Assembly: GCF_024199795.1 (NCBI RefSeq) | Contig: NZ_JANADK010000001.1 | Span: 434,001-498,000, forward strand | DNA length: 64,000 bases | Direction: 5' to 3' | Source of the DNA: Bradyrhizobium sp. CCGB01 | Lineage (GTDB): Bacteria > Pseudomonadota > Alphaproteobacteria > Rhizobiales > Xanthobacteraceae | In this document: positions 17,103-32,284 of the stretch, piece after piece | Layout of the letters: each line of letters opens with the position of its first letter | Position numbering within the stretch: position 1 is the first letter of the stretch | Notes under the pieces: generated by a model | Database searches by the model: none | Seen by the model: only the letters and a program-made list of their open reading frames with translations | What the model was told of the DNA's origin: nothing | Translations under genes and position numbers: made by a program

Positions 17103-19454
17103 GTGAGCAACAGGTTCTGGGTGTCTTTGGGGGCGAGAATGAGTGGCGTTGGGTATCTGTCGCGTGGGCTTCTTTTGAGCGCGGCCAGCTATTTGGCTTT
17201 CGGGTTGGCCAGCGAGGTAAAGGCGCAATCCAGCACGTTGCCGCCCGTCACGGTGGACGCGCCGAAACAGCGACCTAATGCGAGGACGGCGCCGACTCGT
17301 CGGGCAACACAATCAGCAGCTCGCCGTGCGCCCGTTCAGAGCCAGCCGGCGGTCAATCCCGCGATAGCTGCGGCGGCCAGGCCAACGACGGGCACGACAC
17401 ACGTCATCGGCACACCGCCCGCGCCTTATGCCGGTGGACAGGTGGCAAGCGGTGCACGACTTGGTCTGCTTGGCAACAAGAGCATTTTTGATACGCCATT
17501 CACCGTAACCAGTTACACCTCTCAACTGATCCGAGATCAGCAAGCGCAGACAATCGCCGACGTTGTCGCCAACAACCCTTCTGTTCGTCAGCTCCAGTCG
17601 AGTTTCACCGGTCAGCAGAACTACTTCATTCGAGGTTTTCTGTTCAATGCACGTGAGGTTGGGTTCGATGGTCTGTACGGCATCGTTCCAATCTATCGTC
17701 CCGCATTGGAGGGCATTGAGCGCGTAGAGGTTCTGAACGGCCCGTCTGCACTCCTCTACGGCTTCTCACCGTCCGGCAACGTGGGTGGTGTGATCAACAT
17801 GATCCCCAAACGCGCCACCGACTATCCGATCACGCGCATTGCCGCTCAGTACATGTCCAATTCAAACGTCGGGACCGCATTCGACGTGGGTCGCCGCTAT
17901 GGCGAGGCCAATGAATTTGGTGTTCGCGCCAACGGCCTGTACCGCAATGGAGGGACGCCGGTCGATAATCAGAATCTCGAAACCGGGTTTGGCAGCGTAG
18001 GTCTCGACTATCGGGGCGACCGCTTCCGTGCCAGCCTGGATGTCGGCTATCAAAACGATATGATCAAGGCGCCGAGCGGTTCTTTCACCGTCGCGCCCGG
18101 CTTTGCTATTCCTCGCGCACCCGACCTCAGCAGGGGCATCGCGCAGCCGTGGGAACGATCCTACAGCGAGAGCCGATACGCGCTTGCTCGCGCCGAATAT
18201 GATGTGCTGCCGAACTGGACTCTGTTTGCTGCAGTTGGTGGCTCGAACCAGAAGAACGGCGGCTTCGGGACCACTGGTCGGATCGTCAACGCGGCTGGCG
18301 ACATCACTCAAACGGCTTCCACGTCGCAGGTCGGTGGCGCCGTCCAAGAGCAGTGGACGGGAGAAGTCGGCGTTCGGGGCAAGGTTCAGATAGGTCCGGT
18401 CCAGCACGCCATTTCGGTCGTTGGCACGTCGTATAACAGCAATCAGGAATTCGGCGGTTTCGTTAACGGACCCGTCTTCGTATCCAACCTGTACAACCCG
18501 ACATACTACCCGCGACCGACGTTCTCCGGAACGGCCGCAAGCCGTCAGCATCTGTTCGCAGATAGTGCGGCGGTGACCGATACATTGTCGGTTCTGGATG
18601 AACGGCTGCAGCTTCTGGTCGGTGCTCGTTACCAGTCATTGAGGACGGACACTTTTGGACCCACGGGCGTTTTCACCAGCTCCGAAGCCGGAGTGAGAAC
18701 CTCGCCGCTCGGTGCACTCATCGTAAAGCCGGTCAAGCCTCTTTCTCTTTACGTCAGTTACGCCGAAGGCTTCGGTTTCACCGCCACAACGCCGAACAAT
18801 GCACTCAACAATCCCGATCGAGTGCTGCCGCCTGGCCTGTCAAAGCAGATCGAGACCGGTGCCAAGCTCGATCTGGGCACCATTGGCATGTCGCTGGCTT
18901 TCTTTGAAATCACCAGGCCCAATGCCTTCCTTGATGCCAATTTGATTTTTGGCTTCAACGGTGAACAGCGGAACCGCGGCATTGACTACAATGTATTCGG
19001 TGAAGTGGCGCCGGGTGCCCGCATTCTTGGCGGCTTCACGCTGCTCGACGGCGTTCTCACCAAGACAGCCAACGGCGCGTTCGACGGAAAGAAGGCGCCG
19101 GGCGTGCCTGATGTCTCGATCAACATCGGTGGCGAGTACGACTGGTGGTTTGCGCCGGGCTTCACGACGAGTGCGCGCGTGATCTACACGTCGAAGCAAT
19201 ATTACGATCAGGCCAATCTCCAGTGGATCCCCGAGTGGACCCGTCTTGACCTTGGTGCACGTTATTCGTGGGTCTACGAGAAAATTCTCTGGAATGCGCG
19301 CTTCAATGTCGAGAACGTTACGGACCTGAATTATTGGGCCTCGACGGGGCAAGGGTCGCTGCAACAGGGGATGCCGCGTACCTTCCGGCTTACGCTCAGC
19401 GCGGACCTGACGCCCCCGCCTCCTCCGGTTACGCCGGTCCTGTACAGGAAGTGA
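17103..19454 (+). CDS. TonB-dependent siderophore receptor
   Basis: Outer-membrane receptor of 783 aa. It has a signal peptide (LLLSAASYLAFGLASEVKA), a TonB-box-like PPVTVDAP just after cleavage, an Ala/Pro-rich linker, a plug domain (SQLIRDQQAQTIADVVANNPS, then YFIRGF and ERVEVLNGPSALLYG, and GNVGGVINM) and a 22-strand barrel. No STN signalling domain is present, so regulation probably goes through the adjacent AraC protein. The start is either GTG 17103 or ATG 17139; the latter has a GGGGGCGAG stretch just upstream. The end is odd: after the last strand (FRLTLSADL) there is a Pro-rich tail TPPPPPVTPVLYRK instead of a terminal aromatic residue. Confidence 0.9.
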   Translation: MSNRFWVSLGARMSGVGYLSRGLLLSAASYLAFGLASEVKAQSSTLPPVTVDAPKQRPNARTAPTRRATQSAARRAPVQSQPAVNPAIAAAARPTTGTTHVIGTPPAPYAGGQVASGARLGLLGNKSIFDTPFTVTSYTSQLIRDQQAQTIADVVANNPSVRQLQSSFTGQQNYFIRGFLFNAREVGFDGLYGIVPIYRPALEGIERVEVLNGPSALLYGFSPSGNVGGVINMIPKRATDYPITRIAAQYMSNSNVGTAFDVGRRYGEANEFGVRANGLYRNGGTPVDNQNLETGFGSVGLDYRGDRFRASLDVGYQNDMIKAPSGSFTVAPGFAIPRAPDLSRGIAQPWERSYSESRYALARAEYDVLPNWTLFAAVGGSNQKNGGFGTTGRIVNAAGDITQTASTSQVGGAVQEQWTGEVGVRGKVQIGPVQHAISVVGTSYNSNQEFGGFVNGPVFVSNLYNPTYYPRPTFSGTAASRQHLFADSAAVTDTLSVLDERLQLLVGARYQSLRTDTFGPTGVFTSSEAGVRTSPLGALIVKPVKPLSLYVSYAEGFGFTATTPNNALNNPDRVLPPGLSKQIETGAKLDLGTIGMSLAFFEITRPNAFLDANLIFGFNGEQRNRGIDYNVFGEVAPGARILGGFTLLDGVLTKTANGAFDGKKAPGVPDVSINIGGEYDWWFAPGFTTSARVIYTSKQYYDQANLQWIPEWTRLDLGARYSWVYEKILWNARFNVENVTDLNYWASTGQGSLQQGMPRTFRLTLSADLTPPPPPVTPVLYRK

Positions 19455-19459
19455 GGCCG

Positions 19460-19588
19460 ATGAGCGAGCAACGCGGCATTGAAGACGATGTAGATGCCGT
19501 GTTGCAGCTCAAGGCGACGGATGTTGGCTCGGGGCTGCCGGGCGGGGGCAGCCCTGACGGCAAGTCCATAGGCTTGGTCCCACAATGA
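19460..19588 (+). CDS. Possible 42-aa small protein between receptor and PepSY genes
   Basis: The frame MSEQRGIEDDVDAVLQLKAT continues to ...SIGLVPQ. It begins 5 bp after the receptor stop with GTGAGG just upstream, and its stop overlaps the next ATG as ATGA. The N-terminal half is acidic and the second half Gly-rich. No family is recognised. The spacing and overlap suggest it could be translated to couple the operon, but it may be only a coupling spacer. Confidence 0.35.
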   Translation: MSEQRGIEDDVDAVLQLKATDVGSGLPGGGSPDGKSIGLVPQ

Positions 19589-20880
19589 TCAGATCAGTCT
19601 CCACAATTCTCCATCGTTGGTTCGGACTAACGATTGCTGCGTTCATCATCTTTTCCGGCCTCACAGGCGCGATCATTTCCTGGGACCACGCGATCGACGA
19701 ATGGCTCAACAGCGAATTCTTCGACGTCAAAACGCAAGGCGAGAATAAGCCGATTCTTGAACTCGTGCGTCTGGCGGAACAACGCGATCCTCGCATCGAG
19801 GTGATCTACTTCGAGCTGGTCCCGGAAGCCGGGAAGAGCGCCTATCTATATGCGGAACCGAAAATCGATCCCGCGACGAACAAGCGTTTCGTCGTGGACT
19901 ACGATCAGATCTATCTCGATCCGCATACCGGCGAAGAAATGGGAAAGCGCAAATTTGGCGCCCCGTGGCCGATAACGAAAACGAACTTCACGTCGTGGAT
20001 GCTCAAGTTTCACTATACCTTGCACTTCCCGGAATTCTGGGGAACGGACAAGTGGGGCATCTGGCTTCTCGGCGTCATCGCCGTGATCTGGACCGTCGAT
20101 TGCTTCGTTGGATTTTATCTGACCCTTCCACCGCGAAAACGAACCAGTATCGTGAGGCCCGCGGCCGTGGCTCGGGAATTGGGGAAAGGGTTCTGGACGC
20201 GCTGGTGGCCGGCCTGGAAGATCAAGACCAGAGGAAGCGCCTATCGGATCAACTTTGATATCCATCGGGCCTTCGGGCTTTGGACCTGGTCGCTTCTTTT
20301 CATCGTGGCGTTCACTGCATTCTCGTTGAACCTCTATCGAGAGGTCTTCAGCCCCATCATGCAGACTGTTTCCAACTATACGCCGTCTGTTTTTGAGACG
20401 CGCAAGCCAGTCGGTTTGGACGAAAGGATCACGCCGAAATTCTCGTTTCAGGAGATCATCGAACGGGCGAACGAGGAAGGTAAGCGTCGTGGGTGGCCCG
20501 AACCGGTCGGCGCTATTTCATACCAGGCCCGCTACGGAATCTATCAGCCGCGCTTCTTTTTTCCCGGAGCGGACGATCATGGAGGCGGTGGCGTCGGCCC
20601 TGCCCGGCTTCATTATGACGGCGTAACCGGCGAAGTGGTCGGACAACGCGTCCCTTGGAGCGGCAGCGCCGCGGACATTTTTGCGCAAGCGCAATTTCCG
20701 CTGCATTCGGGCCGTATCCTTGGATTGCCGGGCCGCATCCTCATCTCGGCGATGGGCCTTGTATCTGCCGCGCTGGCCGTGACGGGGGTGGTCATCTGGT
20801 GGCGAAAGCGGAGGGCAAGGGTTCTGCGTTCGAGCCAAGGAGCCTATGCCTCCGCTCTCAGGTCGCTGCCTGCCGAGTGA
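19585..20880 (+). CDS. PepSY-associated transmembrane protein (ferric reductase-like)
   Basis: A 431-aa inner-membrane protein of the PepSY_TM family. A first helix lies at the N-terminus (LHRWFGLTIAAFIIFSGLTGAIISW), paired helices lie in the middle (WGIWLLGVIAVIWTVDCFVG; FGLWTWSLLFIVAFTAF) and a last one at the C-terminus (ILISAMGLVSAALAVTGVVIWW). Conserved His in membrane segments (LHRW, FHYTLHFPEFWG, IHRAFG, FPLHSGRI) could bind haem. Members next to TonB receptors are thought to reduce siderophore-bound iron in the periplasm (established for some relatives, inferred here). It is the last gene of the receptor operon and its ATG overlaps the small ORF before it. Confidence 0.85.
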   Translation: MIRSVSTILHRWFGLTIAAFIIFSGLTGAIISWDHAIDEWLNSEFFDVKTQGENKPILELVRLAEQRDPRIEVIYFELVPEAGKSAYLYAEPKIDPATNKRFVVDYDQIYLDPHTGEEMGKRKFGAPWPITKTNFTSWMLKFHYTLHFPEFWGTDKWGIWLLGVIAVIWTVDCFVGFYLTLPPRKRTSIVRPAAVARELGKGFWTRWWPAWKIKTRGSAYRINFDIHRAFGLWTWSLLFIVAFTAFSLNLYREVFSPIMQTVSNYTPSVFETRKPVGLDERITPKFSFQEIIERANEEGKRRGWPEPVGAISYQARYGIYQPRFFFPGADDHGGGGVGPARLHYDGVTGEVVGQRVPWSGSAADIFAQAQFPLHSGRILGLPGRILISAMGLVSAALAVTGVVIWWRKRRARVLRSSQGAYASALRSLPAE

Positions 20881-20922: not shown

Positions 20923-22194
20923 TCACACCACGCTTCTCCCTGCCCGCTCAGCCACCTGCCTCTGCACAAAATACATCGCCACCAGCGCGACCATCGCCGA
21001 CGCGACGACGACGTAGCCGATCCGGTCGAAATGGAGCAGCGAGCCGTCGGGCGCTTGCGCGACGATCGCGGCGGCGGCCACTGAGCCGAGGCCGCCGGAG
21101 AGCTGCTGAAGCGAGGCGCTGATCGCGCTGAACGAGCCGCGCTGGCTCTGGTCGGGGATCGCCGACATCAGGGCCTGCGACGGGATCATGCGCGAGAAGA
21201 TGCCGACGAACATCAGCACGTTGACGAGGATCGCGGTCGTCAGCGAGACGTGGCCGAGATGGGTGTAGATCAGCACCATGATGACGGACACCACGCTGCC
21301 GAACACGAAGGTCGGGTATTTGCCGAACGCATCGCTGGCCCGGCCGACCAGAGGCCCGGTGACGATGCTGAACAGGCCGGAGACGAGATAGATCGTCGGC
21401 AGGTGCAAAATGTCGATGCCGAGATTGTGCACGGTGAACGCGCTGGAGAACGGCATCAGCATGTAGCCGCCCGTCGCCAGCAGCGTCGTGACGGCGAAGG
21501 CCAGCGTGTAGCGCGGCTCTCCGATCGTCGCGATCAGATGGCGGAACGGATTTCTGTCCTGCTTCAGCTTCAGATGCGCGTCGACCGGCTCCATGGCGAA
21601 CACGATGATGGCGATCGCGGCGATCGACAGGCCGACGATCGCAATGAAGCAGACATGCCAGTTCCAGTGATTGGCGAGAAACAGCCCGGCCGGAATGCCG
21701 AGCACCTGGCTCGCGGCGAACGCCGTCTGGACGAAGCCCATCACCCGGCCGCGCAGGTGCAGCGCGAACAAATCGGTGATGATGGCGAGCACGACCGAGC
21801 CGATCACGCCGCCGAACAATCCGGTCACGATCCGGCCGAGCAGCAGCACATGGTAATTCGGCGCGGCGGCGCAGAGCGCGGTTCCGAGCGTGAAGCCGAC
21901 ATAGAAGAACAGCAGCAGGCGCTTGCGGTCGAAGCGATCGGCAAAGCCGGCGGCCAAAATGCCCGAAATGCCCGCGCTGAACGCGTAGGCCGAGACCGCG
22001 ACGCCGAACTGCCCGGCCGTGATGTCGAGCGCGGGCATCAGGATGGCGCCGAGCGGCGACATGATGATGAAATCGAGGATGATCGTGAACTGCGTGAACG
22101 CGAGCAGCGCGATGAGGAGCGCTTGATAGCGCGAAAAGCCGCGCGGGCGGTCCGATTGATCGTCGATAGGCGCGGCGAGCGTCTGGTCGGTCAT
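20923..22194 (-). CDS. MFS transporter (drug/metabolite exporter type)
   Basis: A 423-aa twelve-helix major facilitator. The signature after helix 2 reads AAGFADRFDRKRLLLFFY and helix 4-5 contains RIVTGLFGGVIGSVVLAIITD, as in DHA1-type H+ antiporters. The charged FADRFDRKR loop and Arg in helix 4 are intact. Substrate is unknown. The start at 22194 (MTDQTLAAPIDDQ) is preferred because the 35 in-frame codons upstream are not transporter-like. Base composition is typical of the core genome, so the acquired-looking iron block probably ends before it. It may be co-transcribed with the large regulator whose stop lies 102 bp upstream. Confidence 0.85.
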   Translation of the reverse strand: MTDQTLAAPIDDQSDRPRGFSRYQALLIALLAFTQFTIILDFIIMSPLGAILMPALDITAGQFGVAVSAYAFSAGISGILAAGFADRFDRKRLLLFFYVGFTLGTALCAAAPNYHVLLLGRIVTGLFGGVIGSVVLAIITDLFALHLRGRVMGFVQTAFAASQVLGIPAGLFLANHWNWHVCFIAIVGLSIAAIAIIVFAMEPVDAHLKLKQDRNPFRHLIATIGEPRYTLAFAVTTLLATGGYMLMPFSSAFTVHNLGIDILHLPTIYLVSGLFSIVTGPLVGRASDAFGKYPTFVFGSVVSVIMVLIYTHLGHVSLTTAILVNVLMFVGIFSRMIPSQALMSAIPDQSQRGSFSAISASLQQLSGGLGSVAAAAIVAQAPDGSLLHFDRIGYVVVASAMVALVAMYFVQRQVAERAGRSVV

Positions 22195-22295
22195 GGGGCT
22201 CGATTCATGGCGAGTGGAGGAGGAGACTGGCAGATAGGGTGGGCCGGGGCGAATTTCATGGGCCGCAGGCCGCTCGTTCCCCCGGAACATGAAGC

Positions 22296-25200
22296 TCACG
22301 CCGGGTTGTAGGATCCATGCAACAGGGAGTCCGGCAGTCCGCTCAATTCCGCTTCGGCCTGTGCCAGCCAGAACCGCATCTCCATCTCGCGGTACATCGT
22401 CGCCGCGGCAACAAGCTCGTCGCGAGCCTGGTCCGGACGTCCCGCGTTCGAATACAATTTTCCGAGGCCGTGACGGCAGCGCGCAGCGAGCGGGCGGAGG
22501 TCGAGTTCATCGGCCAGCGCGAGCGCGGCTCTGTAGTGACCTTCAGCCTGGTCCGGGGAGCTGTCGCCGCTGGAAGCCTCGCCCAGAAGGCGCAGGGCGG
22601 CCGCCTCGCCGCTCCTCTGGCCATTTTCACGGGCCAGCGTCAGCGCCCGCCCGGCAGCCCTGAGAGCATCCGCCTGCCGGCCCGCGAACAGGTATGCTTC
22701 GCCCAAAGGCGACAGGAACAGCGCCTGAGCAAATCGATGCCCCATCTTCTCGAAGACCCTCAGCGCCTGCTCCATCAGCGGCAGGCCTTCGGCCGTTCGC
22801 CCCAGCAGGGCATAAGCGTGGCCAAGGCTGCCGGAATTGCCTGCGACGAGGAACGGCAGGTTCCACTCGCGCGCCACCGCCAGTCCACGCTCCAGCACCA
22901 CGACTGCACGGTTCAGCTCTCCCCGGGACGCCAGCAGATCGGCAAAACACCAGCTGACGATGCCGAGGCTGTAGGGGTGATCGACCGCCTCGGCGAGGCG
23001 TATGCCTTCCTCGCCGTGAGCGATCCCGCGCGCGAACTTGCCCTGGTCGGCATAGATGCGAGCGAGAAAACCGTGGGCGGTCACCGCCGGAAATCCGGCG
23101 AGGGAAAATTGCTGGAGGCTTGCGTCGCCGTCGAGCAGTTCCAGTACGTTGAGGTAATGAGATTCCGACTCGCCGTAGTGCAGCGTCGAGAAGCAGGCGA
23201 GCCCGAGAAACAGCGATGCCGAGATGCGGAGCGAAAGCTCGCCGAGCTGCTCTGCGAGACGATGGGCGTCCCGCCCGAACGTGACGGCGTCCTGTGGATG
23301 GCCGCTCAGGCTGAGGGTCTGGCACATGTGAACGGACGCGAGGCAAAGTCGTCCGGGATCGTCGAGATTTCTGGCCAGCGCTTCGGCCTCGCGAAGATAG
23401 TCGACGATGCGCGCGAACTGGCCGAGTGGAAACAGCGAGGTCTTCAGGTCGAACCTGAGATCGATCGCCTGCTCCATTGTGTCCCGGGTCTGTGGCAGAG
23501 TCGCGAGACAGCGCAGCCCCCGTTCGAAGAAACTGGCCGCTTCGCGGTTGGCCCATCGCGCATGTGCGAGTCGCCCCGCCTTGATCCAGTGGTCGGTCGC
23601 CTCGCGGGCACGCCCGGCCTCGGTGAAATGAAGGGCAACGATCTCGGATTGGGTTTCGGCCAGTGCCGGGAAGCTTTCGATGAGTGTGTTCGCGATATCC
23701 GCATGCAATTGCTGCCTGCGGCTCCTCAGCATCGCGACATAGGCGGCATCCTGGACCAGCGCGTGCTTGAACGTGTAGCTCGCCTGCGGCGGCGAGCCGC
23801 GACGGCTGACGAGGCCGGAGGCCGTCAACCGTTCAAGCGCGGCGTCCAGATCGACAGGGGGCAGCGCGGATATTGCAGCGATCAGCTCGTAGGAGAACTC
23901 CCGCCCGATCGAAGCGCCGATCGAAGCCACGTCCTTCACCGCGCCGAGCAGATCGAGGCGAGCGGCCAGCGAGGCCTGCAACGTCGCCGGAATGGCGAGC
24001 GACCGCCGCGATCCCTCCGGCCCTTCGCTGCCGGATGCCTCGCGCAACAGCTCCTGCTCAATCAGCGTGCGGGTCAACTCCTCGACGAACAGCGGGATGC
24101 CGTCGGCACGCGACAATATCTGCTCGACGACGGGCTCGGGCAGAGGCTTGCCTCCCGCGACGTCATCAATGATGCCGGCGCTGTCGCTGCGGCCAAGGCG
24201 GCCGAGGGGCAGCAGCGTCACATGAGGCTGGCCGATCCAGGAAGGCTGGAATTCCGGCCTGATGGTGATGAGCAACAGCAACGGCAGATTTGCGGCGCGA
24301 GCCGCGATCGCGTCGAGCAGGTCGAGCGATGTCGGGTCGATCCAGTGCGCGTCCTCGATCACGATCAGCCCCGGTGTCTGCACCGTTCCGGCTGAAAGCT
24401 GGTTGAGCAGCGCATTGAGGGTCATCTCCCGCTTCTCCTGCGGGGAGATCGCGAGGGCCGGATAGCGTCCGTCCGAGGGCACGCCGAGAAGCTCGGCGAT
24501 CAGCATGACATCGCGGGTCAGATTTTTCGTTGCGGGCGCGAGCAGGGTTTCCAGCCTGTCTATCCGTGCGCCGGCGCTGCTGCCGGGTTCGAAATCGGCA
24601 GCCCGTTCAAGCTGAATGATGAGCGGGTAGAGCGCGCTGTGCGCATGATGCGGAGAGCAATAATAGCGCAAGCGGCTGTGTTGCTCGTCCTCGAGCCTCG
24701 TCAACACGCTCTCGACGATGCGCGACTTGCCGATGCCGGGCTCGCCCGAGATCAGCACCACGCGGCCCGCACCGGACTTCGCCTGATCCCAGCGGCGCAG
24801 CAGCAGCTCGATCTCTTCCTGGCGACCGACGAGCGCGGACAGTGAATCGGCGCGCCGCGCATCGAAACGGCTGACGCCCACGGCCTCGCCGAGCACTTGC
24901 CACGCGGGCACCGGCTCTCGCAGTCCCTTGACCTCGATATCCGGAAGCGCGCGCGTGTCGAACAATTGCCCAAGCAGCCGCCGCGTGCCGGCTGCGATCG
25001 CGACCTCGCCCGGTCCGGCAACGCCCTGCAACCGCGTTGCCAGGTTCGGCGTCTCGCCGATCGCAACGTGCTGCCTGAGATCGCCGGGCCCGGGCTTCTC
25101 GCCGATCACGACGAGGCCGGTTGCGATCCCGACGCTCGCCCGCGGTGCCGTGCCGGCCGGTGCGTTGAGAATGCGAACCGCGTCGACGATCGCGAGGCCG

Positions 25201-26291
25201 GCGCGTACGGCGTGTTCGGCATCGTGCTCGCGCGCCATGGGATAACCGAAATAGATCAGGACACCGTTGCCCTGGTGCTGGGCGACGAAGCCATGGAATT
25301 GCACCGCGATCCGGGCCGCGACCTGATGAAAGGCGACGATCTGGTCGTGGACGTCCTCTGGGTCGCGCTCCGCGGACAGAGGCATCGCGCCGATCAGATG
25401 GCAAGCCATGATCGTCAACTGGCGCTGCTGGCGGCCGCCCGGGCGAAGCGATTCCGAAGGCGGGGCATCGTCGTCGCGTTCCGCGACGGCTGCGGCTTCG
25501 GTCTCCCGCACCCGAACGCCATCCAGGGGCTCGTTCGTCCGCGCGCCACCGGATGGTCTGGCGTTGCGGAGTTCCGCGACGAGCGACTGGGTGACCGCAT
25601 CGGGCTCCGTGTTCAGCTCGCGCTTGAGCAGCGCGACGAGATCCTGATAGCGCTTGAGCGCCTCGGCCCTGCGTCCAGTGGCGGTGAGCGCCTGGATGAC
25701 CAGCCGATGCGCATCCTCGCGCAAGGCATTCACGGCAATGGCCCGGTTGGCCGTCCTGAGCGCGGATTCCGCATGTCCGGACTGCAGCGCGTGCTGGCCG
25801 TGCCGGACCATGGAATCGACTGCCAGGCCGTCCAGCCGCTCCCGTTCCTGGTCGCGCCATTCCGACCATGCGTCTTCTTCGATGTTCAGATCCGTCAGCA
25901 GCGGATTGCGGTAGAGATCGGCGGCCGCGGCCAGCGACGCACGGCTGCCCTCGACGATCAGCGTCTCGAAGCGGACCGCATCGCAATCGATCACGCCGGG
26001 CGCGAGCCAGACGTCGTTGTCGTCGCTGCAAATGGAGTCCTGCCCGAGAATCCGCCGTAACCGCACGAGGCTCTGGCGCAGATTCTGCCGCGCCTGGGTC
26101 TCGAAATGCGAGCCCCACAGCAGGTTCGCGAGCTTTTCGCGCGGTTGGCGGCGCGGCGCAGTGCAAGCCAGATAGGCCAGCAATCCCGCAAGCTTCCGGC
26201 CCGGCAACGAAACCACGCCGTCATTTGTCGTCAGTTCAAAACGTCCGAACAGCGAAAGACCAAATCTCGGAAGCGGCACGCAGTCTCTCAT
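22296..26291 (-). CDS. SARP-type regulator with degenerate cyclase domain, AAA ATPase and TPRs
   Basis: A 1331-aa multidomain protein. In order: OmpR-like winged helix (about 10-100, LSLFGRFELTTNDG), BTAD helical domain (105-255, LNIEEDAWSEWRDQERERL), class III cyclase-homology domain (292-460), STAND/AAA ATPase with Walker A GEPGIGKSR near 515 and Walker B LIVIEDAHW, then a long TPR-like tail to the end. In the cyclase domain both metal-binding Asp are replaced: the usual FCDLVGS reads ACHLIGA (His298) and GDGVL reads GNGVL (Asn342). It therefore probably senses nucleotides or ligands rather than making cAMP. The start is taken at ATG 26291; a GTG at 26354 is possible. Divergent from the adhesin cluster, which it may control (inference). 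Confidence 0.85.
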   Translation of the reverse strand: MRDCVPLPRFGLSLFGRFELTTNDGVVSLPGRKLAGLLAYLACTAPRRQPREKLANLLWGSHFETQARQNLRQSLVRLRRILGQDSICSDDNDVWLAPGVIDCDAVRFETLIVEGSRASLAAAADLYRNPLLTDLNIEEDAWSEWRDQERERLDGLAVDSMVRHGQHALQSGHAESALRTANRAIAVNALREDAHRLVIQALTATGRRAEALKRYQDLVALLKRELNTEPDAVTQSLVAELRNARPSGGARTNEPLDGVRVRETEAAAVAERDDDAPPSESLRPGGRQQRQLTIMACHLIGAMPLSAERDPEDVHDQIVAFHQVAARIAVQFHGFVAQHQGNGVLIYFGYPMAREHDAEHAVRAGLAIVDAVRILNAPAGTAPRASVGIATGLVVIGEKPGPGDLRQHVAIGETPNLATRLQGVAGPGEVAIAAGTRRLLGQLFDTRALPDIEVKGLREPVPAWQVLGEAVGVSRFDARRADSLSALVGRQEEIELLLRRWDQAKSGAGRVVLISGEPGIGKSRIVESVLTRLEDEQHSRLRYYCSPHHAHSALYPLIIQLERAADFEPGSSAGARIDRLETLLAPATKNLTRDVMLIAELLGVPSDGRYPALAISPQEKREMTLNALLNQLSAGTVQTPGLIVIEDAHWIDPTSLDLLDAIAARAANLPLLLLITIRPEFQPSWIGQPHVTLLPLGRLGRSDSAGIIDDVAGGKPLPEPVVEQILSRADGIPLFVEELTRTLIEQELLREASGSEGPEGSRRSLAIPATLQASLAARLDLLGAVKDVASIGASIGREFSYELIAAISALPPVDLDAALERLTASGLVSRRGSPPQASYTFKHALVQDAAYVAMLRSRRQQLHADIANTLIESFPALAETQSEIVALHFTEAGRAREATDHWIKAGRLAHARWANREAASFFERGLRCLATLPQTRDTMEQAIDLRFDLKTSLFPLGQFARIVDYLREAEALARNLDDPGRLCLASVHMCQTLSLSGHPQDAVTFGRDAHRLAEQLGELSLRISASLFLGLACFSTLHYGESESHYLNVLELLDGDASLQQFSLAGFPAVTAHGFLARIYADQGKFARGIAHGEEGIRLAEAVDHPYSLGIVSWCFADLLASRGELNRAVVVLERGLAVAREWNLPFLVAGNSGSLGHAYALLGRTAEGLPLMEQALRVFEKMGHRFAQALFLSPLGEAYLFAGRQADALRAAGRALTLARENGQRSGEAAALRLLGEASSGDSSPDQAEGHYRAALALADELDLRPLAARCRHGLGKLYSNAGRPDQARDELVAAATMYREMEMRFWLAQAEAELSGLPDSLLHGSYNPA

Positions 26292-26488
26292 TCCAGTGGC
26301 AACCGGGCACGGCGATCGTGGCCTCGGAAACACACCTAACACGCTTTGACGCACTTTGAATGCCGCGCAAAGCAGGAGTCACGCTGCTGTCACGCCGGAC
26401 TGACGCCGGCATTGACGGCGGTCGGCCTACAAATCCGCCGCGGGCGCGCTCCCGATGGCGAATTGGGGAGATAGTGGGGGACGAAAAT

Positions 26489-27940
26489 ATGAATATTTCA
26501 GTCGTATTCCGGATGCGAGCAGCCGCTTTCCTTGCAACCGCGCTCATTGCCGCGATCGTGATCTGCGCCGGCGCGCCGCAAGCCCGGGCTCAATTTGTCT
26601 GCGTCGATACCGGCGCCTCCGCCCAAGGTGCGACGGCAACCGGGTCAGGCGGCAATTTTGCCTGCGGGACCAATGCAAACGCCACCGGCACAGGCGGTAA
26701 CAACACGGCAATCGGGTTCGGAGCAAACGCCAACGGCAACGTCAGTGGCAATCTCGCCATCGGCCTCGCCAACGCCAGTGGCAATAGCAGCGTCAATACA
26801 GCGGTCGGGGACAACGCCAATGCCAGCGGCAACAGCAGCGTCAATACCGCGACCGGGGAAGCGCTCGCCAACGGCAACAACAGCTCCAACACCGCGAGCG
26901 GATTTGACGCCATTGCCAGCGGTGATGGCAGCAAAAATACTGCGACCGGGTCCGGCGCTCACGCGACGGGCGACAACAGCGCCAATTCCGCATTGGGTGC
27001 TGGGGCCGTTGCAAACGGCAACGCCAGCAACAACATTGCGTCCGGGACCAACGCCAACGCCAGCGGCAATATCAGCTCCAACGTCGCGACCGGCTTGAAC
27101 GCCAACGCGAGTGGCGCCGGAAGCCGAAACGTCGCGACCGGCGACGGCGCCAACGCCAGTGGCGCGAGCAGCTTCAACGCGGCGAGCGGCTATCTCTCCA
27201 ATGCGAGCGGCGCCAATTCGGGAAATGTCGCAACCGGAGCAGGCGCTCTGGCTAACGGCACCGGTAGCGCCAACGTCGCGGTGGGCCTCAACGCCACCGC
27301 CAGTGGAAACGGCGTCGCCAATACCGCGGTGGGCAATGGCTCCAACGCCACGGGCGCGAATTCGTCGGCCTTCGGCAATGGCGCGTCGGCGACTTTCGCG
27401 AACTCCACCGCGATCGGCAACGGCGCCACCGCGACGCGCGCGAACCAGCAGGTCTACGGCACCGCCACCAATACCTACACGATGACCGGCATCGCCTCGG
27501 CGGCGAGCACGGCCGCGCAGTCCGGACCGACGCAACTCGTCACCACGGATGCCGCCGGCAATCTCGCCTCGACGTCGCTGGCCGCGCTCGGGCTTGCCAG
27601 CTCCGGCGACATCGCCGGAATCAACAATCGGCTCGCAGGCATCAATGCGCACCTCTCCGAACTCGACGGCAGGACCAGCAAGGCGATCAACGGTGTTGCG
27701 ATGGCTTTTGCGATGTCCGGTTCGCCGTGGCTAATGCCGTCCGAGAAGATCGCGGTCACCGCGAACTGGGGCACGTTCCAGAACACCAATGCGCTCTCTA
27801 TGAGCGCCGCGCTCCGCGTCAGCGAGCATGTGCAGGCCAGCGGCGGCCTGACCTATGGCACGAACGGCCGGCGGATTGGGCGGACGTGTCGGAATGCGCG
27901 TCGGCTGGTGAAGGCGGGCGCGGCCAGTCCATGCAATTGA
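26489..27940 (+). CDS. YadA-like trimeric autotransporter adhesin, C-terminal frameshift
   Basis: A surface adhesin of 483 aa as read. It has a signal peptide (FLATALIAAIVICAGAPQARA), a head of about fourteen 15-16-residue repeats of type ASGNxSxNxATGxNAN followed by two canonical 14-residue YadA repeats, a short neck, a coiled coil (IAGINNRLAGINAHLSELDG) and the membrane anchor (AMAFAMSGSPWLMPSEKIAVTANWG). The end is abnormal: the frame runs into RIGRTCRNARRLVKAGAAS. Removing one C at 27868-27869 restores GGLGGRVGMRVGW and a TGA at 27909, the expected last barrel strand with terminal aromatic residue. The reading frame is thus probably a recent frameshift or a sequencing error. The start at 26489 follows GGGGGAC; upstream in-frame codons lack a signal peptide. 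Confidence 0.85.
   Translation: MNISVVFRMRAAAFLATALIAAIVICAGAPQARAQFVCVDTGASAQGATATGSGGNFACGTNANATGTGGNNTAIGFGANANGNVSGNLAIGLANASGNSSVNTAVGDNANASGNSSVNTATGEALANGNNSSNTASGFDAIASGDGSKNTATGSGAHATGDNSANSALGAGAVANGNASNNIASGTNANASGNISSNVATGLNANASGAGSRNVATGDGANASGASSFNAASGYLSNASGANSGNVATGAGALANGTGSANVAVGLNATASGNGVANTAVGNGSNATGANSSAFGNGASATFANSTAIGNGATATRANQQVYGTATNTYTMTGIASAASTAAQSGPTQLVTTDAAGNLASTSLAALGLASSGDIAGINNRLAGINAHLSELDGRTSKAINGVAMAFAMSGSPWLMPSEKIAVTANWGTFQNTNALSMSAALRVSEHVQASGGLTYGTNGRRIGRTCRNARRLVKAGAASPCN
26690..27440 (+). repeat. Tandem 48-bp coding repeats of the adhesin head
   Basis: About fourteen diverged units of 45-48 bp encode the 16-residue head repeat (pattern A-S/N-G-N-x-S-x-N-x-A-x-G-x-N-A-N), ending in two 42-bp units. 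Such repeats can expand or contract by recombination and may vary in number between strains. Confidence 0.8.
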
Positions 27941-28500
27941 TTGCGCGTGCCCTGATTGCGCTGGCGCTGCTGCTGTCGTGCAGCAACGGCCGGGCGGAAG
28001 CTCAACAGAAAACGCTTGCGCCTGCGGCCACGCCCGCGCAGCCGTCGCTGCCTGTCACGCTGGAGCAGGCGCTCTATCTGATCCGTTCGACGCTGCTTAC
28101 GCTCAATGATGCCAACCGCACCGGCAATTACACCGTGCTGCGCGATCTCGCCGCGCCCGATTTCCAGGCGCGCAATACCGCCGCCGATCTCGGGCTGAAT
28201 TTTCTCGACCTGCGGCGTCGCAATTTCGATCTGTACGGCGCGGCATTGCTGCCGCCGCAATTCACCGAAGCGCCATCGCTCGACCAGCGCGGAATGCTGC
28301 GCCTTGCCGGTTACATTCCGACCCAGCCGCAGCAGATCAAGTTCGATCTTGTGTTTCAGATCGCCGCCGGACAATGGCGTCTGTTCGGGATCGCGATCGC
28401 CACGCCGGAAGCACCCGCGCCGCCGCAGGCTCAGGCTCAAGCCCAGACTCAAGCGTCTCCCGTCAAGCCGGCGGCACCTCTGCAAAAGAAATCACAATGA
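27931..28500 (+). CDS. Secreted NTF2-like protein (hypothetical, possible lipoprotein)
   Basis: A 189-aa protein starting MQLIARALIALALLLSCSNG. The LLSC could be a lipobox, or the signal may be cut after RAEA. The central part reads LNDANRTGNYTVLRDLAAPDFQ, then GMLRLAGYIPTQPQQIKFDL and ends GQWRLFGIAI, a pattern of NTF2-like domains, followed by a Gln/Ala-rich low-complexity tail ending KKSQ. The start has AAGGCGGG upstream and lies 19 bp after the restored stop of the adhesin (27911), so with the frameshift repaired the two genes are neatly spaced in one operon. As the sequence stands the adhesin stop overlaps it by 10 bp. Confidence 0.7.
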   Translation: MQLIARALIALALLLSCSNGRAEAQQKTLAPAATPAQPSLPVTLEQALYLIRSTLLTLNDANRTGNYTVLRDLAAPDFQARNTAADLGLNFLDLRRRNFDLYGAALLPPQFTEAPSLDQRGMLRLAGYIPTQPQQIKFDLVFQIAAGQWRLFGIAIATPEAPAPPQAQAQAQTQASPVKPAAPLQKKSQ

Positions 28501-28588
28501 GGCGCTCTGCCAACAGATTCTCAGCCGCGACCGTCATCGGCTGGAATTTTTCACTGCTCCCGGACGGATTATGAAGAGGAACAAGTTC

Positions 28589-28771
28589 ATGATGTATCGA
28601 ATGATGATCGCCGCGGCGTTGTTCGCAGCGGTCAGCGCCGCCCCGGTCATGGCTTACACGAGATCTCCGTCGCTGAGCGACGCGTCCGTACGGAAGAACA
28701 TCCCGCCGCCGCCGAAGCCCACTCCGGCGCCCCCCAAGCCGCCAGCCCCCACGTCCGGGAAGAAGCCGTAG
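28589..28771 (+). CDS. Small secreted Pro-rich protein (hypothetical)
   Basis: About 60 aa with a signal peptide (MMYRMMIAAALFAAVSAAPVMA) and a short mature part ending in a Pro/Lys run (PPPPKPTPAPPKPPAPTSG then KKP). The GAGGA at 28576-28580, eight bases upstream, favours ATG 28589; an upstream in-frame ATG at 28571 lacks a site. Pro-rich tails of this kind can span the periplasm or touch peptidoglycan, but no function is claimed. It is the third gene of the surface cluster. It could be missed by annotation because of its size. Confidence 0.55.
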   Translation: MMYRMMIAAALFAAVSAAPVMAYTRSPSLSDASVRKNIPPPPKPTPAPPKPPAPTSGKKP

Positions 28772-28867
28772 CCGCGGCTTTATTGCGAGTCCGAGCGCGA
28801 GGTCGCCGTGCATCCGGCGATCTCGTTGCCGCCAGGCTTCTCCAACTGCATGTCCTGTCAGCCCATC

Positions 28868-30097
28868 ATGCGCGCACGCCTCTGCGATTTCGTTCGAGAC
28901 GGATGGAAGCGCGCGTGTGTCGTCATGGCCTGCTGTACGGTTTCCTCGCTTGCGAATGCCGCCGAGCCGAACTGGTCGCTGAGCGCCGATCAGGATTTGC
29001 GATATGCGAGCTGGAGCGGCACGCGGGGTTTCCCTGCCAGCGGCTCGACGGCGGCCGGCGCCGGGACGCAGGTCTATGCACCCCTGACGATCCAGGCGAG
29101 CGGGCAGCCGCTCGAAAACGTCAAAGTCGATCTGCTCGGCAGGGGCGGCTATGTGTGGTCACGGCAATCCACGCCCGGGTTGACCGGCAGCATCACGACC
29201 GCGACCGATACGGTGGTCTCGGGGACAGCAACCTATCTCGGCATTCCCGGAATTCAGCCGTTCGTCTCCATGAACGTCAACCTTCCCTCGGGGACGACGG
29301 CTCTCTATGGCAGCGCGGCGAATGCGCGAATGGATCAGGACATCGTCGACCTCGCAACATTCGGCGAAGGGTTGAACATAGGGCCGACGGTCGGCGTCAA
29401 CCTGCCCATCGGCGAACAGCTCATCCTGACGTTCAGTTCCGGCTATACCTGGCGCGGCGCATATCGCATGGAAGCGCTGCTCGATCCCGCAAGCACGGAG
29501 CCGCAGGCAACCACATTGGTGGGGCCGGGACGGGTCGCGACGCAGAGTGCGTCGCTCGGCTACCAGCTGGCAAACCTGACGCTGCTGGCTTCAGCGTCCT
29601 ACGCCCACGAAACTGCAACCTATCTGGATCATATCTCATCTTATGCGCTTGGCGACCGCTACACGCTGTCAGGTACGGTCGGATACGCATGGACGACATC
29701 GTCGAGCACGACATTCACGGCGTCGTGGACCAACGCGGAGAAGAACAGGGTGTTGGATCCGGACCTGTTGAAGATTGTTCCCGAGTCGTTTCGGTCCAAC
29801 AGCGCCGTTTATCGGTATCGCCTCGAGCAACCCGTCGTGAGCGGCAACTGGACCGTCGCACCGATGGTGAACTACATGCGGCGCGATCAAAACTCCTACA
29901 ATCCGGTCACGCAGCAATTCATTCCGGCAAAGACCCGCATCGGAGCCGGAGGTTCTGCGCAGTATTCACTACGCGAAGGCTTGTCCTTGAAAGCGAGTGT
30001 AGAGCACTTCTGGATCAATGAGAATCCGACCGAGCTGACACCGAACCTTCGCGTTCGCGGCTGGATCGCGATACTTGGCGGGAGCATGAAATTTTGA
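28868..30097 (+). CDS. Outer-membrane beta-barrel protein (hypothetical)
   Basis: A 409-aa protein with a signal peptide ending SSLANA and a mature part of alternating hydrophobic and polar residues typical of a transmembrane barrel (WSLSADQDLRYASWSG; LILTFSSGYTWRGAYRM; YTLSGTVGYAWTTSSSTTF). It ends LRVRGWIAILGGSMKF, with the terminal Phe that the BAM complex recognises. No named family is recognised; it resembles autotransporter-type and porin-like barrels. The start is uncertain: GTG 28808 or ATG 28868, the latter giving a normal signal peptide. Its stop overlaps the next gene (TTGA), so they are coupled. It could be a partner channel of the cluster. Confidence 0.7.
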   Translation: MRARLCDFVRDGWKRACVVMACCTVSSLANAAEPNWSLSADQDLRYASWSGTRGFPASGSTAAGAGTQVYAPLTIQASGQPLENVKVDLLGRGGYVWSRQSTPGLTGSITTATDTVVSGTATYLGIPGIQPFVSMNVNLPSGTTALYGSAANARMDQDIVDLATFGEGLNIGPTVGVNLPIGEQLILTFSSGYTWRGAYRMEALLDPASTEPQATTLVGPGRVATQSASLGYQLANLTLLASASYAHETATYLDHISSYALGDRYTLSGTVGYAWTTSSSTTFTASWTNAEKNRVLDPDLLKIVPESFRSNSAVYRYRLEQPVVSGNWTVAPMVNYMRRDQNSYNPVTQQFIPAKTRIGAGGSAQYSLREGLSLKASVEHFWINENPTELTPNLRVRGWIAILGGSMKF

Positions 30098-30672
30098 CGC
30101 GCATCATCACCGGGTTGAGCGGCTTTGCTCTTGTCACGGCATTCGTCGCCGGCTTGTCGACTTTCGATCAGGCGCACGCAAGATGCCCAGAGGGCAGGAC
30201 TGCAGGTGGTGGATGCGTCAACGGCGGCCTCGCCAGGTCGATGCGCCAGCGAGCGATCATCTTCTCGCAGCCCAAACTGTCCTATACCGGCGCGCCGGTC
30301 TCGCAGAGCCGCGGCGACAGCCAGGACACGAACACCCCCAGGTTGATCGAGCGGTCCTACAACAAATACGGACCGCCTCCGCCCCAGCCCGTGCCGGCGG
30401 TGGTTCCGACCCTGCCGCCAACGCCTCCACCGCCTCCACCGCCTGTCACGTCCGACAGACGGCTCAAGCACGACATCTTGCGCCTTGGATGTCTCGACAG
30501 CGGCATCTGCCTCTACCGGTTTCGCTATCTCTGGGACGACACGTTCTATGTCGGTGTGATGGCCCAGGAGGTCGAGCGGATCTTGCCCAGTGCCGTGGTG
30601 CACGGTCCCGACGGCTATCTTCGGGTCCGTTACGACCTGCTCGGACTGCAGTTCCGCAGCTGGGGCGGTTGA
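30094..30672 (+). CDS. Secreted protein with S74 intramolecular-chaperone domain
   Basis: A 192-aa protein with a signal peptide (ALVTAFVAGLSTFDQAHA), a Cys pair, a Pro-rich linker (about 94-117) and a C-terminal Peptidase S74/ICA-like domain: SDRRLKHDI, then YRFRYLWDDTFYVGVMAQEVERIL and YDLLG. In phage tail spikes this domain trimerises the fibre and then cuts itself off with a Ser-Lys dyad; here Ser120 and Lys125 keep the S-x4-K spacing. The domain usually ends a large spike protein, but here it stands nearly alone. It starts with TTG overlapping the barrel stop by 4 nt. It may act in trans on the trimeric adhesin (speculative). Confidence 0.7.
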   Translation: MTRIITGLSGFALVTAFVAGLSTFDQAHARCPEGRTAGGGCVNGGLARSMRQRAIIFSQPKLSYTGAPVSQSRGDSQDTNTPRLIERSYNKYGPPPPQPVPAVVPTLPPTPPPPPPPVTSDRRLKHDILRLGCLDSGICLYRFRYLWDDTFYVGVMAQEVERILPSAVVHGPDGYLRVRYDLLGLQFRSWGG

Positions 30673-30804: not shown

Positions 30805-30958
30805 ACGATGCCGGCGGAATGACGGGTCGGCGAAACGGGTTGGCGGCAGTCTCCGGTTAAGCCAGCCTTAGCGAATGCCCCCTACGCTCGCGGCCGTCCA
30901 TTTCCCTGCTCCCCGGCCTAAGGGCCGGTCAGTTTGCGGCAAGTCAGAGCGTTTTCGG

Positions 30959-32284
30959 ATGGAGCAGCCTGCCTGGCAGTATGATTCTGGCGCGCCTGAG
31001 CCGTCGGCAACGGCGGCGGCTGCGCGGACGCTCGTCATTGATCTCGAAGGCGCCCTGCTGCGGTCCGAGCTCTTGATGGAAGCGCTGTTCTCCAGCCCCG
31101 CCCGCCTGCTGGCGCGCTTCGGTGCGGGCGGACGGCCGGGGATGGCGGCGCTGACGGATGTCCTGGCGCAGGCCGAGATCGACTATGCCCATCTGCCCTA
31201 TGATTCCGGCGTGCTGAACCAGGCGCTGGCGGCGCGGGCGCGGGGCGGGAAGATCTATCTGGTTGCCGGCCGCTTTGCCCGCCATGCCGCCGGCATTGCC
31301 GCCCATCTCGGCTTTGACGGCGTCGTTACGCCGGCTGATCTTTCTGCGGGCGGCAAGCTGCCGTTCGATCCCGCCTCCGTGGAGCGCATCGAGAAGCGCG
31401 GCAGCGCTGGCGCGAGCCTCAAGACCTGGGCGAAGGCGCTGCGGGTCTATCAATACGCCAAGAACACGCTGGTGTTCGTGCCTGCGATCACTGCGCATCA
31501 GATGAACCTTCCGACGCTCGGCTATGCGCTGCTGGCGTTCATGGCGTTCTCGGCCTGCGCGTCGGGCGCCTATCTGATGAACGATCTGCTCGATCTCGCT
31601 GCCGACCGGCAGCATCCGACCAAGCGCCATCGGGCGCTTGCGGCCGGCGATCTGCCGATCTCGTCGGCGCTGCTTGCGATCCCCGCGCTGTGGCTGTTCG
31701 CGGTTGCAGCTTCCCTCTGCATCTCACCGCTGTTCCTCGGCGTGCTCGGTGGCTATCTCGCCACCACGATCGCCTATTCGCTCGTGCTCAAGCGCAAGAT
31801 GCTGGTCGACGTCGTCACGCTCGCTGGCCTCTACACGCTGCGCATCGTCGCCGGCGCGGTCGGTGTCGATGTGGTGCTGTCGGAATGGCTGCTGATCTTC
31901 TCGCTGTTCGTGTTCACCTCGCTGGCGCTGATCAAGCGCTTCAGCGAGCTCAGCATGCGCGAGAGCGCCGGCCTCGCCGATCCCTCCAACCGCGATTACA
32001 AGATCACCGACCTGCACATCATCAGCGCGATGGCGGCGGCGAGCGCCATGAACGCGGTGACCGTGTTCTCGCTCTATGTGTCCTCGTCCGCGGTGACGCC
32101 GCTCTACAGCCGGCCCTGGATGCTGTGGCTGCTCAACCCGCTGCTGCTCTACTGGTTCGGCCGTGCCCTGATGATGGCGCATCGCCGCGAGATGCCCGAC
32201 GATCCGATTCTCTATACTTTTCGCGACGGTGCCAGCCGCATCACGGTGGCGGCGATGATCTGCATCATGCTGGCCGCGATCTGA
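30959..32284 (+). CDS. UbiA-family prenyltransferase (DprP-like) with degenerate HAD domain
   Basis: A 441-aa protein with two parts. Residues about 20-150 form a HAD-like domain that has lost key residues (VIDLEGALL where DxDGT is expected), so phosphatase activity is doubtful. Residues 170-441 form a UbiA membrane domain with about eight helices. Its first motif NDLLDLAADRQHPTKRHR and second region KRFSELSMRESAGLADPSN resemble the decaprenyl-phosphate phosphoribosyltransferase (Rv3806c type) more than quinone UbiA enzymes. It would attach phosphoribose to polyprenyl phosphate, feeding the DprE1/DprE2-like pair at 11.1-13.1 kb. The ATG at 30959 is favoured; one 84 bp upstream is possible. 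Confidence 0.8.
   Translation: MEQPAWQYDSGAPEPSATAAAARTLVIDLEGALLRSELLMEALFSSPARLLARFGAGGRPGMAALTDVLAQAEIDYAHLPYDSGVLNQALAARARGGKIYLVAGRFARHAAGIAAHLGFDGVVTPADLSAGGKLPFDPASVERIEKRGSAGASLKTWAKALRVYQYAKNTLVFVPAITAHQMNLPTLGYALLAFMAFSACASGAYLMNDLLDLAADRQHPTKRHRALAAGDLPISSALLAIPALWLFAVAASLCISPLFLGVLGGYLATTIAYSLVLKRKMLVDVVTLAGLYTLRIVAGAVGVDVVLSEWLLIFSLFVFTSLALIKRFSELSMRESAGLADPSNRDYKITDLHIISAMAAASAMNAVTVFSLYVSSSAVTPLYSRPWMLWLLNPLLLYWFGRALMMAHRREMPDDPILYTFRDGASRITVAAMICIMLAAI

Follow-up and report, generated by a model that had tools for sequence, protein, structure and literature searches.

Do the surface-protein genes that lie opposite a very large regulator in a Bradyrhizobium chromosome form one system, and does the regulator control them? 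The question is raised by a locus in a 64,000-nucleotide stretch of DNA (hereafter the window), which spans positions 434001-498000 of a 9.3-Mb genome in one contig, with named relatives in Bradyrhizobium. A preliminary description, made from the sequence of the locus, had placed five plus-strand genes divergent from the regulator, which we call REG: a YadA-like trimeric autotransporter (TAA), an NTF2-like secreted protein, a small Pro-rich protein, an outer-membrane β-barrel and a protein with an S74 domain. All six genes are present, and the 4-base TTGA overlap of the barrel and S74 genes is real. The same description read the five genes as one system, in which a separate S74 protein would serve the adhesin as chaperone. 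Our comparison of relatives favours another reading, to which we assign a probability of roughly 0.6: the locus would be a surface-protein block that is open to exchange and stands under a local regulator of SARP-LAL type, carrying two independent cargo modules. From their distribution in sequenced relatives, TAA-NTF2 on the one hand and the barrel with its 'CPEGRT' partner, here bearing S74, on the other look like separate modules beside one regulator. The features of the locus are as follows.

20923..22299, minus strand: MFS transporter in the flank, a marker of chromosomal place
22296..26354, minus strand: REG, large regulator with BTAD (SARP), cyclase homology, AAA_16 ATPase and TPR parts (Pfam); likely true start 26291
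26379..26420, plus strand: candidate operator, a run of repeats (motif scan, conservation)
26360-27940 (open reading frame), plus strand: YadA-like trimeric autotransporter, likely start 26489; PF05658 head repeats, frame broken in the last strand
27931..28500, plus strand: secreted NTF2-like protein, conserved partner of the TAA gene (alignment, model, PDB fold matches)
28571..28771, plus strand: small Pro-rich protein of 66 aa, secreted (relatives in related loci)
28808..30097, plus strand: predicted outer-membrane β-barrel, porin/FadL-like in its model, likely start 28868 (predicted structure)
30094..30672, plus strand: secreted 'CPEGRT..CVN' protein, barrel partner, with a short C-terminal S74 domain (PF13884, E 1e-7)
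30875..32284, plus strand: UbiA prenyltransferase in the flank, a marker of chromosomal place

Relatives were compared in two samples with one genome per species, 146 genomes of the genus and 297 of the order. Export signals, i.e. signal-like N-termini, were judged by eye. As the genome searches scored 4-22 candidates per genome, an absence in them is not proof.

The two modules come apart in both directions. In ten fetched genomes (L220-L229) a TAA gene adjoins the window's MFS gene, and no REG, barrel or S74 gene lies between the flanks; the other flank is UbiA in eight of them and RNase D in two. The NTF2-like gene follows the TAA gene in nine, although the copy in G029 is truncated and that in G062 is divided between frames; G008 lacks it. 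In the window, G122 and B. stylosanthis, REG sits between MFS and TAA, and the small, barrel and S74 genes sit between NTF2 and UbiA. The reverse case is SZCCT0400 (G068, locus L009), which lacks TAA-NTF2 and nothing else between the repeat and the small gene and keeps REG, barrel and S74; at the thresholds applied, its genome gave no match to either of the two missing genes. A genome of another family, G433, has REG facing TAA-NTF2 and is absent from the genomes in which the barrel was found. Three other genomes, G122, B. stylosanthis BR 446 and OK095, carry the full set (in OK095 the small gene was not found), and two more, SZCCT0400 and G034, carry part of it. Relatives of the small Pro-rich protein were found in G122, B. 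stylosanthis and SZCCT0400, with two variants in G034. Thus the conservation of gene order that the preliminary description proposed to look for exists, as REG | TAA-NTF2-(small)-barrel-S74 in three relatives, while elsewhere the parts are separate; independent occurrence in relatives was the outcome which that description itself had named as speaking against one system.

This bears directly on the view that the five genes make one machine, in which the S74 protein would act in trans as chaperone of the adhesin and the barrel would be a component. The order common to the window and the three relatives with the full set, together with the close spacing and overlap of the genes, would fit it, whereas TAA-NTF2 occurs mostly without barrel or S74 (barrel in 5 of 146 genus genomes, TAA in 36), barrel-S74 persists in SZCCT0400 without any TAA match, and the S74 domain is missing from the barrel partner in G034 and in another genus. 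Moreover, S74 is carried as a tail by a secreted protein of its own and, elsewhere in this genome, by a DUF3300 protein (L002 1390-3150, the one S74 case checked). On the separate distributions of TAA-NTF2 and barrel-S74 we rejected the single machine, and the S74 version of it appears very improbable to us. A scan of the plus strand between 26200 and 31000 found no terminator-like sites; its yield was no higher than with shuffled sequence, so that it says little on a single transcript.

The barrel and the CPEGRT protein most likely form a separate envelope pair, judging from their neighbourhood in distant relatives. The barrel has no Pfam or NCBIfam family match; its model has a predicted local distance difference test (pLDDT) score of 82.5, and the fold matches are FadL and porins. 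It was found in five genus genomes, in one of them at 33% identity, and by profile (E<=1e-20) in 7 of the 297 order genomes, of which one is the window genome and the rest belong to a single other genus. Named homologues occur in Bradyrhizobium, Methylobacterium, Methylocapsa and Pseudolabrys, some with a second barrel domain. In the other genus a small secreted C[PA]EGRT..G.CV[NS] protein is encoded at the 3' end of the barrel gene at six of eight loci. BLASTP aligns it with the first half of the S74 protein of the window (E 2e-12 to 3e-5, 37-51% identity), and it has no S74 part; a weaker relative is found in G136 (E 1e-4), and the barrel partner in G034 is likewise without S74. On these alignments S74 is a lineage-specific tail added to the CPEGRT partner of the barrel. 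We had considered S74 as the defining part of its protein and rejected this, as the constant part is the CPEGRT half and S74 is missing in other lineages. The idea of an S74 chaperone for the YadA-like protein is not supported. Pfam matches the S74 part alone, with PF13884 near the C-terminus of a 192-aa secreted Pro-rich protein, and a phmmer search of the protein against the PDB gave chance-like matches only. S74-type matches are present in 109 of the 146 genus genomes, mostly in open frames of about 330-880 aa and in some of 109-190 aa. At three loci of the other genus (L162, L164, L166) two small secreted 'AGCGGYVNVFVSGCAPWDNN' genes stand in tandem 5' of the barrel gene.

The block also changes place and history. 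In OK095 and G034 it lies at another chromosomal position, with no MFS or UbiA match in the stretches. At L008 and L009 synonymous divergence (dS) is 0.06-0.18 within the block; the flanks, with 0.20-0.33, are more diverged, a pattern that movement of the block by recombination would produce. Low block divergence is not general, because in G122 the block dS of 0.16-0.60 is not below that of the flanks (0.14-0.30), which counts against exchange there. The NTF2-like gene of OK095 (L010 7831-8259) is 97% identical to window positions 27931-28500, with a dS of 0.09; the TAA, barrel and S74 genes of OK095 differ from those of the window by dS 0.45-0.90. Judged from these values, the NTF2 partner gene alone seems to have been exchanged in OK095.

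We then characterized the pairing of the NTF2-like protein with TAA genes, which is the candidate for the most novel lead of this locus. The protein has no Pfam or NCBIfam family match, and a profile search against the PDB gave zero matches. Its structural model has a core pLDDT of about 90 and comes closest to NTF2-like chains in Foldseek, with a probability of up to 0.99; the scores are weak, with a best E of 0.0055 (to a designed protein) and template modelling scores of 0.25-0.53 in the top five rows. The gene is strongly conserved and under purifying selection, with a ratio of non-synonymous to synonymous divergence (dN/dS) of 0.08-0.22 over six comparisons. We considered it as a lipoprotein, as the window protein carries a signal cysteine, and rejected this: no lipobox cysteine is conserved, and it is missing in many relatives.

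Among the 146 genus genomes, 36 have a TAA (E<=1e-20) and 92 an NTF2-like protein (E<=1e-5). After removal of 11 fragments of already listed reading frames from the 54 TAA matches, 43 TAA loci remained, and 42 of these have an NTF2 match on the same strand at most 360 bp downstream (one a truncated gene), the exception being G008. Seen from the other side, 14 of 56 NTF2 matches (the 55 strongest and the truncated copy) lack a TAA match; weaker genus matches have E 8e-18 and above, except for the truncated G029 copy. At six of these 14 loci a TAA-type reading frame stands directly upstream (one with a displaced end), at one a classical autotransporter (PF03797), three show TAA-like repeats on the other strand, and at four nothing was seen.

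The association extends across the order. NTF2 at E<=1e-20 is found in 42 of the 297 genomes, three of them from the window's genus. Outside the genus, where one locus was read in each of 20 of 39 genomes, a TAA reading frame lies directly upstream on the same strand at 16 of the 20; at L206, L211 and L213 the TAA anchor is 1-3.2 kb from NTF2 in another arrangement, and at L217 none was seen. The TAA-anchor profile A3 matches 50 order genomes, NTF2 (E<=1e-5) 46, and both 40 (Fisher P about 1e-33), with 10 genomes having the anchor only and 6 NTF2 only. At the level of genes, NTF2 lies within 800 bp downstream of 43 of the 68 anchors and is near, in another arrangement, at six; the remaining 19 have none, and 28 of 71 NTF2 matches are not paired with an anchor in this way.

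These figures have to be read against the origin of the profile. The 25 tails from which A3 was made all came from loci that had been fetched around NTF2 or paired TAA genes, and the order-wide co-occurrence is biased towards pairing because most of these TAAs adjoin NTF2. The independent Pfam anchor points the other way in part: it matches in 15 of 79 genomes, of which 9 have NTF2 (one of them, G196, weak and unlinked) and 6 do not, compared with NTF2 in 9 of the 64 genomes without a Pfam-anchor match (hand count). Among the four best Pfam anchors, the genomes G213, G186 and G210 have no NTF2, and the second-best, in G194, has NTF2 1 kb away on the other strand. As the best Pfam anchors are mostly without NTF2, the partner belongs to a subgroup of TAAs. 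A literature search on a TAA-NTF2 link gave nothing related that was apparent by title or abstract start among the matches listed.

Adjacency of this kind suggests that the NTF2-like protein acts on the TAA during export, a tentative assignment from gene context to which we give slightly less than an even chance. Alternatively, it could be no assembly factor at all and instead a secreted partner with a job of its own, such as peptidoglycan or ligand binding or an enzymatic activity, which is co-expressed with the adhesin. NTF2-like folds often bind small ligands, tandem NTF2-like copies stand beside single TAA anchors (G207, G217 C2, G331 C68), and weak relatives of the protein occur in many Bradyrhizobium. 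The close adjacency with one TAA-anchor subgroup and the purifying selection on the gene count against this alternative, which we consider rather unlikely. Tandem copies were also seen at G175 C12, and genomes of the genus g33 hold three to six NTF2-like copies. The distant Bradyrhizobium relatives are about 30-38% identical, and some have an in-frame stop in the matched stretch.

The link between REG and the surface genes, which the preliminary description had suggested, is supported by sequence comparison, through the identity of the divergent genes, a conserved repeat and the gene order shared with G122, B. stylosanthis and OK095. At all eight distinct loci that were read with REG at least 66% identical, surface genes lie on the divergent side: a TAA first in five, a small secreted gene followed by the barrel in two and a classical autotransporter in one (G049, REG | classical autotransporter). 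Besides the window, the regulator search found G068, G122, G034 and G049; the B. stylosanthis, OK095 and G433 loci, three of the eight, were found via their surface genes, which biases the count. At L139 (4769-12082) the gene divergent from REG encodes a classical autotransporter, and one for a large TPR-sulfotransferase protein comes after it.

The region between REG and the TAA gene contains a direct repeat of SARP type, TCACGCTG/TCACGCCG/TGACGCCG, with 11-bp spacing, located 87 bp from the ATG of REG and 68 bp from that of the TAA gene; a unit resembling a fourth repeat, TGACGGCG, follows 12 bp further on. Across 3.06 million positions on both strands (all loaded sequence, overlapping loci included), a score of at least 16 of 18 was reached in 33 rows corresponding to 11 distinct sites, all beside REG-family genes, while ten shuffled windows gave zero repeats at this threshold. 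One of the 11 sites is a second operator-like repeat (16 of 18) at L142 6812, about 1.1 kb upstream of the REG homologue. A repeat scoring at least 15 is present at 11 of 14 distinct loci with a SARP part at least 59% identical, in each case 58-104 nt upstream of the estimated REG start and in the same orientation. At the five most diverged loci (L136, L139, L143, L144, L118) the element is 71-88% identical to the window without gaps, versus 30-46% for its flanks, a difference inflated by the choice of sites by motif. Three homologues with SARP parts 34-36% identical (L115, L121, L130) score 11-12 and have no repeat, and 17 homologues without a recognisable SARP part score 10-14. The scores of random 450-nt pieces, which were drawn from the same set of loci, have their peak at 11; among 400 pieces, 5 reach 14 and two 17-18. 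A sigma-70 scan of the divergent region found nothing.

REG itself matches, in this order, BTAD (PF03704, E 5e-23), the guanylate-cyclase homology PF00211 and AAA_16 (PF13191), together with TPR. The two aspartates that cyclases use to bind the catalytic metals are both altered in the window protein (ACHLIGAM, GNG). Seven distinct loci have a REG that is at least 76% identical; in all of them the second motif reads GNG where GDG is usual, and the first Asp is present in two (G034, G049), with His or Gln in its place in the other five. By sequence, the cyclase domain looks dead. Very large regulators of this class seem to be numerous in Bradyrhizobium: each of 41 genomes with a match has 35-76 candidate stretches, of which four per genome were scored. 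No paper on targets of such regulators was apparent from title and abstract start among the matches listed.

Several observations weigh against control of the surface genes by REG through this repeat. The N-terminal winged helix PF00486 is matched weakly (E 0.0018, 18.8 bits versus a cut-off of 26.2). Before the L141 regulator, one of the 14 with a SARP part at least 59% identical, the repeat is absent, and at L140 (score 13) and L142 (14) the repeats at the usual place are degenerate, with scores that some random pieces match or exceed. In G433 the period of the repeats, taken by itself, falls short of significance, as 44% of shuffles reach it. Finally, the repeat is kept before regulators 47-59% identical overall, yet a surface gene is directly divergent in none of five readable neighbourhoods. 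Because the repeat is kept before REG homologues without divergent surface genes, the operator may serve autoregulation only. REG could accordingly regulate only itself or a distant regulon, with the surface genes parked alongside via a recombination hotspot; the retention of the repeat next to non-surface neighbours and the signs of exchange of the block between strains would both fit. Against it stand the eight of eight close REG loci that have divergent surface genes of three kinds, allowing for the three found via those genes, and the 20 TAA loci without REG (L220-L239), which have zero repeats at 16 of 18 or better. We regard it as unlikely, albeit less so than the five-gene machine.

The modules, the TAA-NTF2 pairing, the repeat and its conservation are established as features of the sequences compared, and the mechanism we propose for the exchangeable block builds on them. 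REG would sense some signal through its pseudo-cyclase, ATPase and TPR parts, may bind the 11-bp-spaced repeats cooperatively by analogy with PimR, and would activate the facing surface cargo, possibly also regulating its own gene. The surface genes could be read as a single transcript. In module 1 the NTF2-like partner probably acts on the TAA in the periplasm, either by keeping it competent for export or by joining it to the envelope. Module 2 would consist of the outer-membrane barrel and the small secreted CPEGRT protein, with a short S74 tail in this lineage.

The closest described counterpart of REG is PimR, a SARP-LAL regulator of Streptomyces, which in the excerpts of PMC3367932 and PMC5930380 binds three heptamers with 4-bp spacers between the divergent genes pimR and pimM. 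As far as these excerpts go, both proteins have, in the same order, an N-terminal SARP part, cyclase homology without the usual signature and a large ATP-binding part, and direct repeats 11 bp apart lie in a divergent intergenic region, those described here being a candidate operator. REG differs in being alphaproteobacterial, in its TPR C-terminus and in the sequence of its repeat, and its neighbours encode surface proteins whereas those of PimR belong to an antibiotic cluster. For the very large regulators that seem numerous in Bradyrhizobium, the conserved repeat is a specific operator candidate.

For the TAA partner, a passage of the review PMC8151025 lists SadB and TpgA as the partners whose genes accompany those of trimeric autotransporters, and calls their exact mechanism unknown. 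SadB, the partner of the TAA SadA, is described in the excerpts of PMC3953254 and PMC8151025 as a trimeric inner-membrane lipoprotein with MATH-domain similarity. There, as here, the gene of an exported helper adjoins the TAA gene; the partner described here is NTF2-like according to its top PDB fold matches and has no conserved lipobox cysteine. TpgA, the periplasmic partner of AtaA, is likewise encoded with its TAA and interacts with peptidoglycan (PMC8151025, in part), unlike the NTF2-like protein, in which no peptidoglycan-binding domain was matched in Pfam or NCBIfam. It is conceivable, with odds that we put a little below one in two, that the NTF2-like family serves specifically in the biogenesis or anchoring of a divergent TAA subgroup across the Hyphomicrobiales, as a third class beside SadB and TpgA, and that in the window lineage it stands under a PimR-like SARP regulator whose operator allows cargo to be swapped. 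If so, soil bacteria would hold a third, widespread and compact family of TAA partners, in which the role of such partners would become testable with harmless strains.

Module 2 has looser parallels. As in the Peptidase_S74/endosialidase intramolecular chaperones, PF13884 lies near the C-terminus; here it is short, sits on a 192-aa secreted protein in which no fibre part was recognised, and is missing from the counterparts in other lineages. The predicted barrel shares its fold matches with FadL/porin-type channels and differs from these in having no Pfam family and a conserved secreted CPEGRT neighbour.

The adhesin of the window deserves separate comment. The preliminary description was right in calling it YadA-like as far as the head repeats are concerned (PF05658, E 1.3e-5, 25.8 bits versus a cut-off of 25), and missed that the frame is broken in the last strand. 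The reading frame ends after '...GLTYGTNG', and the last strand, GGRVGMRVGW, lies in another frame, the shift being near 27850-27890; the final part of the reading frame and its overlap with the NTF2 gene result from this shift. The Pfam YadA anchor PF03895 has no match anywhere in this genome. A profile of relatives' TAA tails matches the window up to position 99 of 108; 20 of 25 such tails match PF03895 at E<=1 (best 2.9e-9), and the closest relative's tail does so at 0.00063, under the cut-off. The adhesin could be a pseudogene or the shift a sequencing error, and module 1 may be silent in this strain, a prospect that we place at even odds. In its favour, the last strand is in frame at all 14 other loci with this anchor that were checked. 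Against it, the rest of the TAA gene, the NTF2 partner and the candidate operator are all intact, and a single shift within a GC-rich stretch is a common error of long-read assemblies.

Just upstream of the locus, window positions 17103-20880 hold a TonB-receptor-like open reading frame, called by eye, followed by a PepSY-TM gene, likely an iron-uptake pair.

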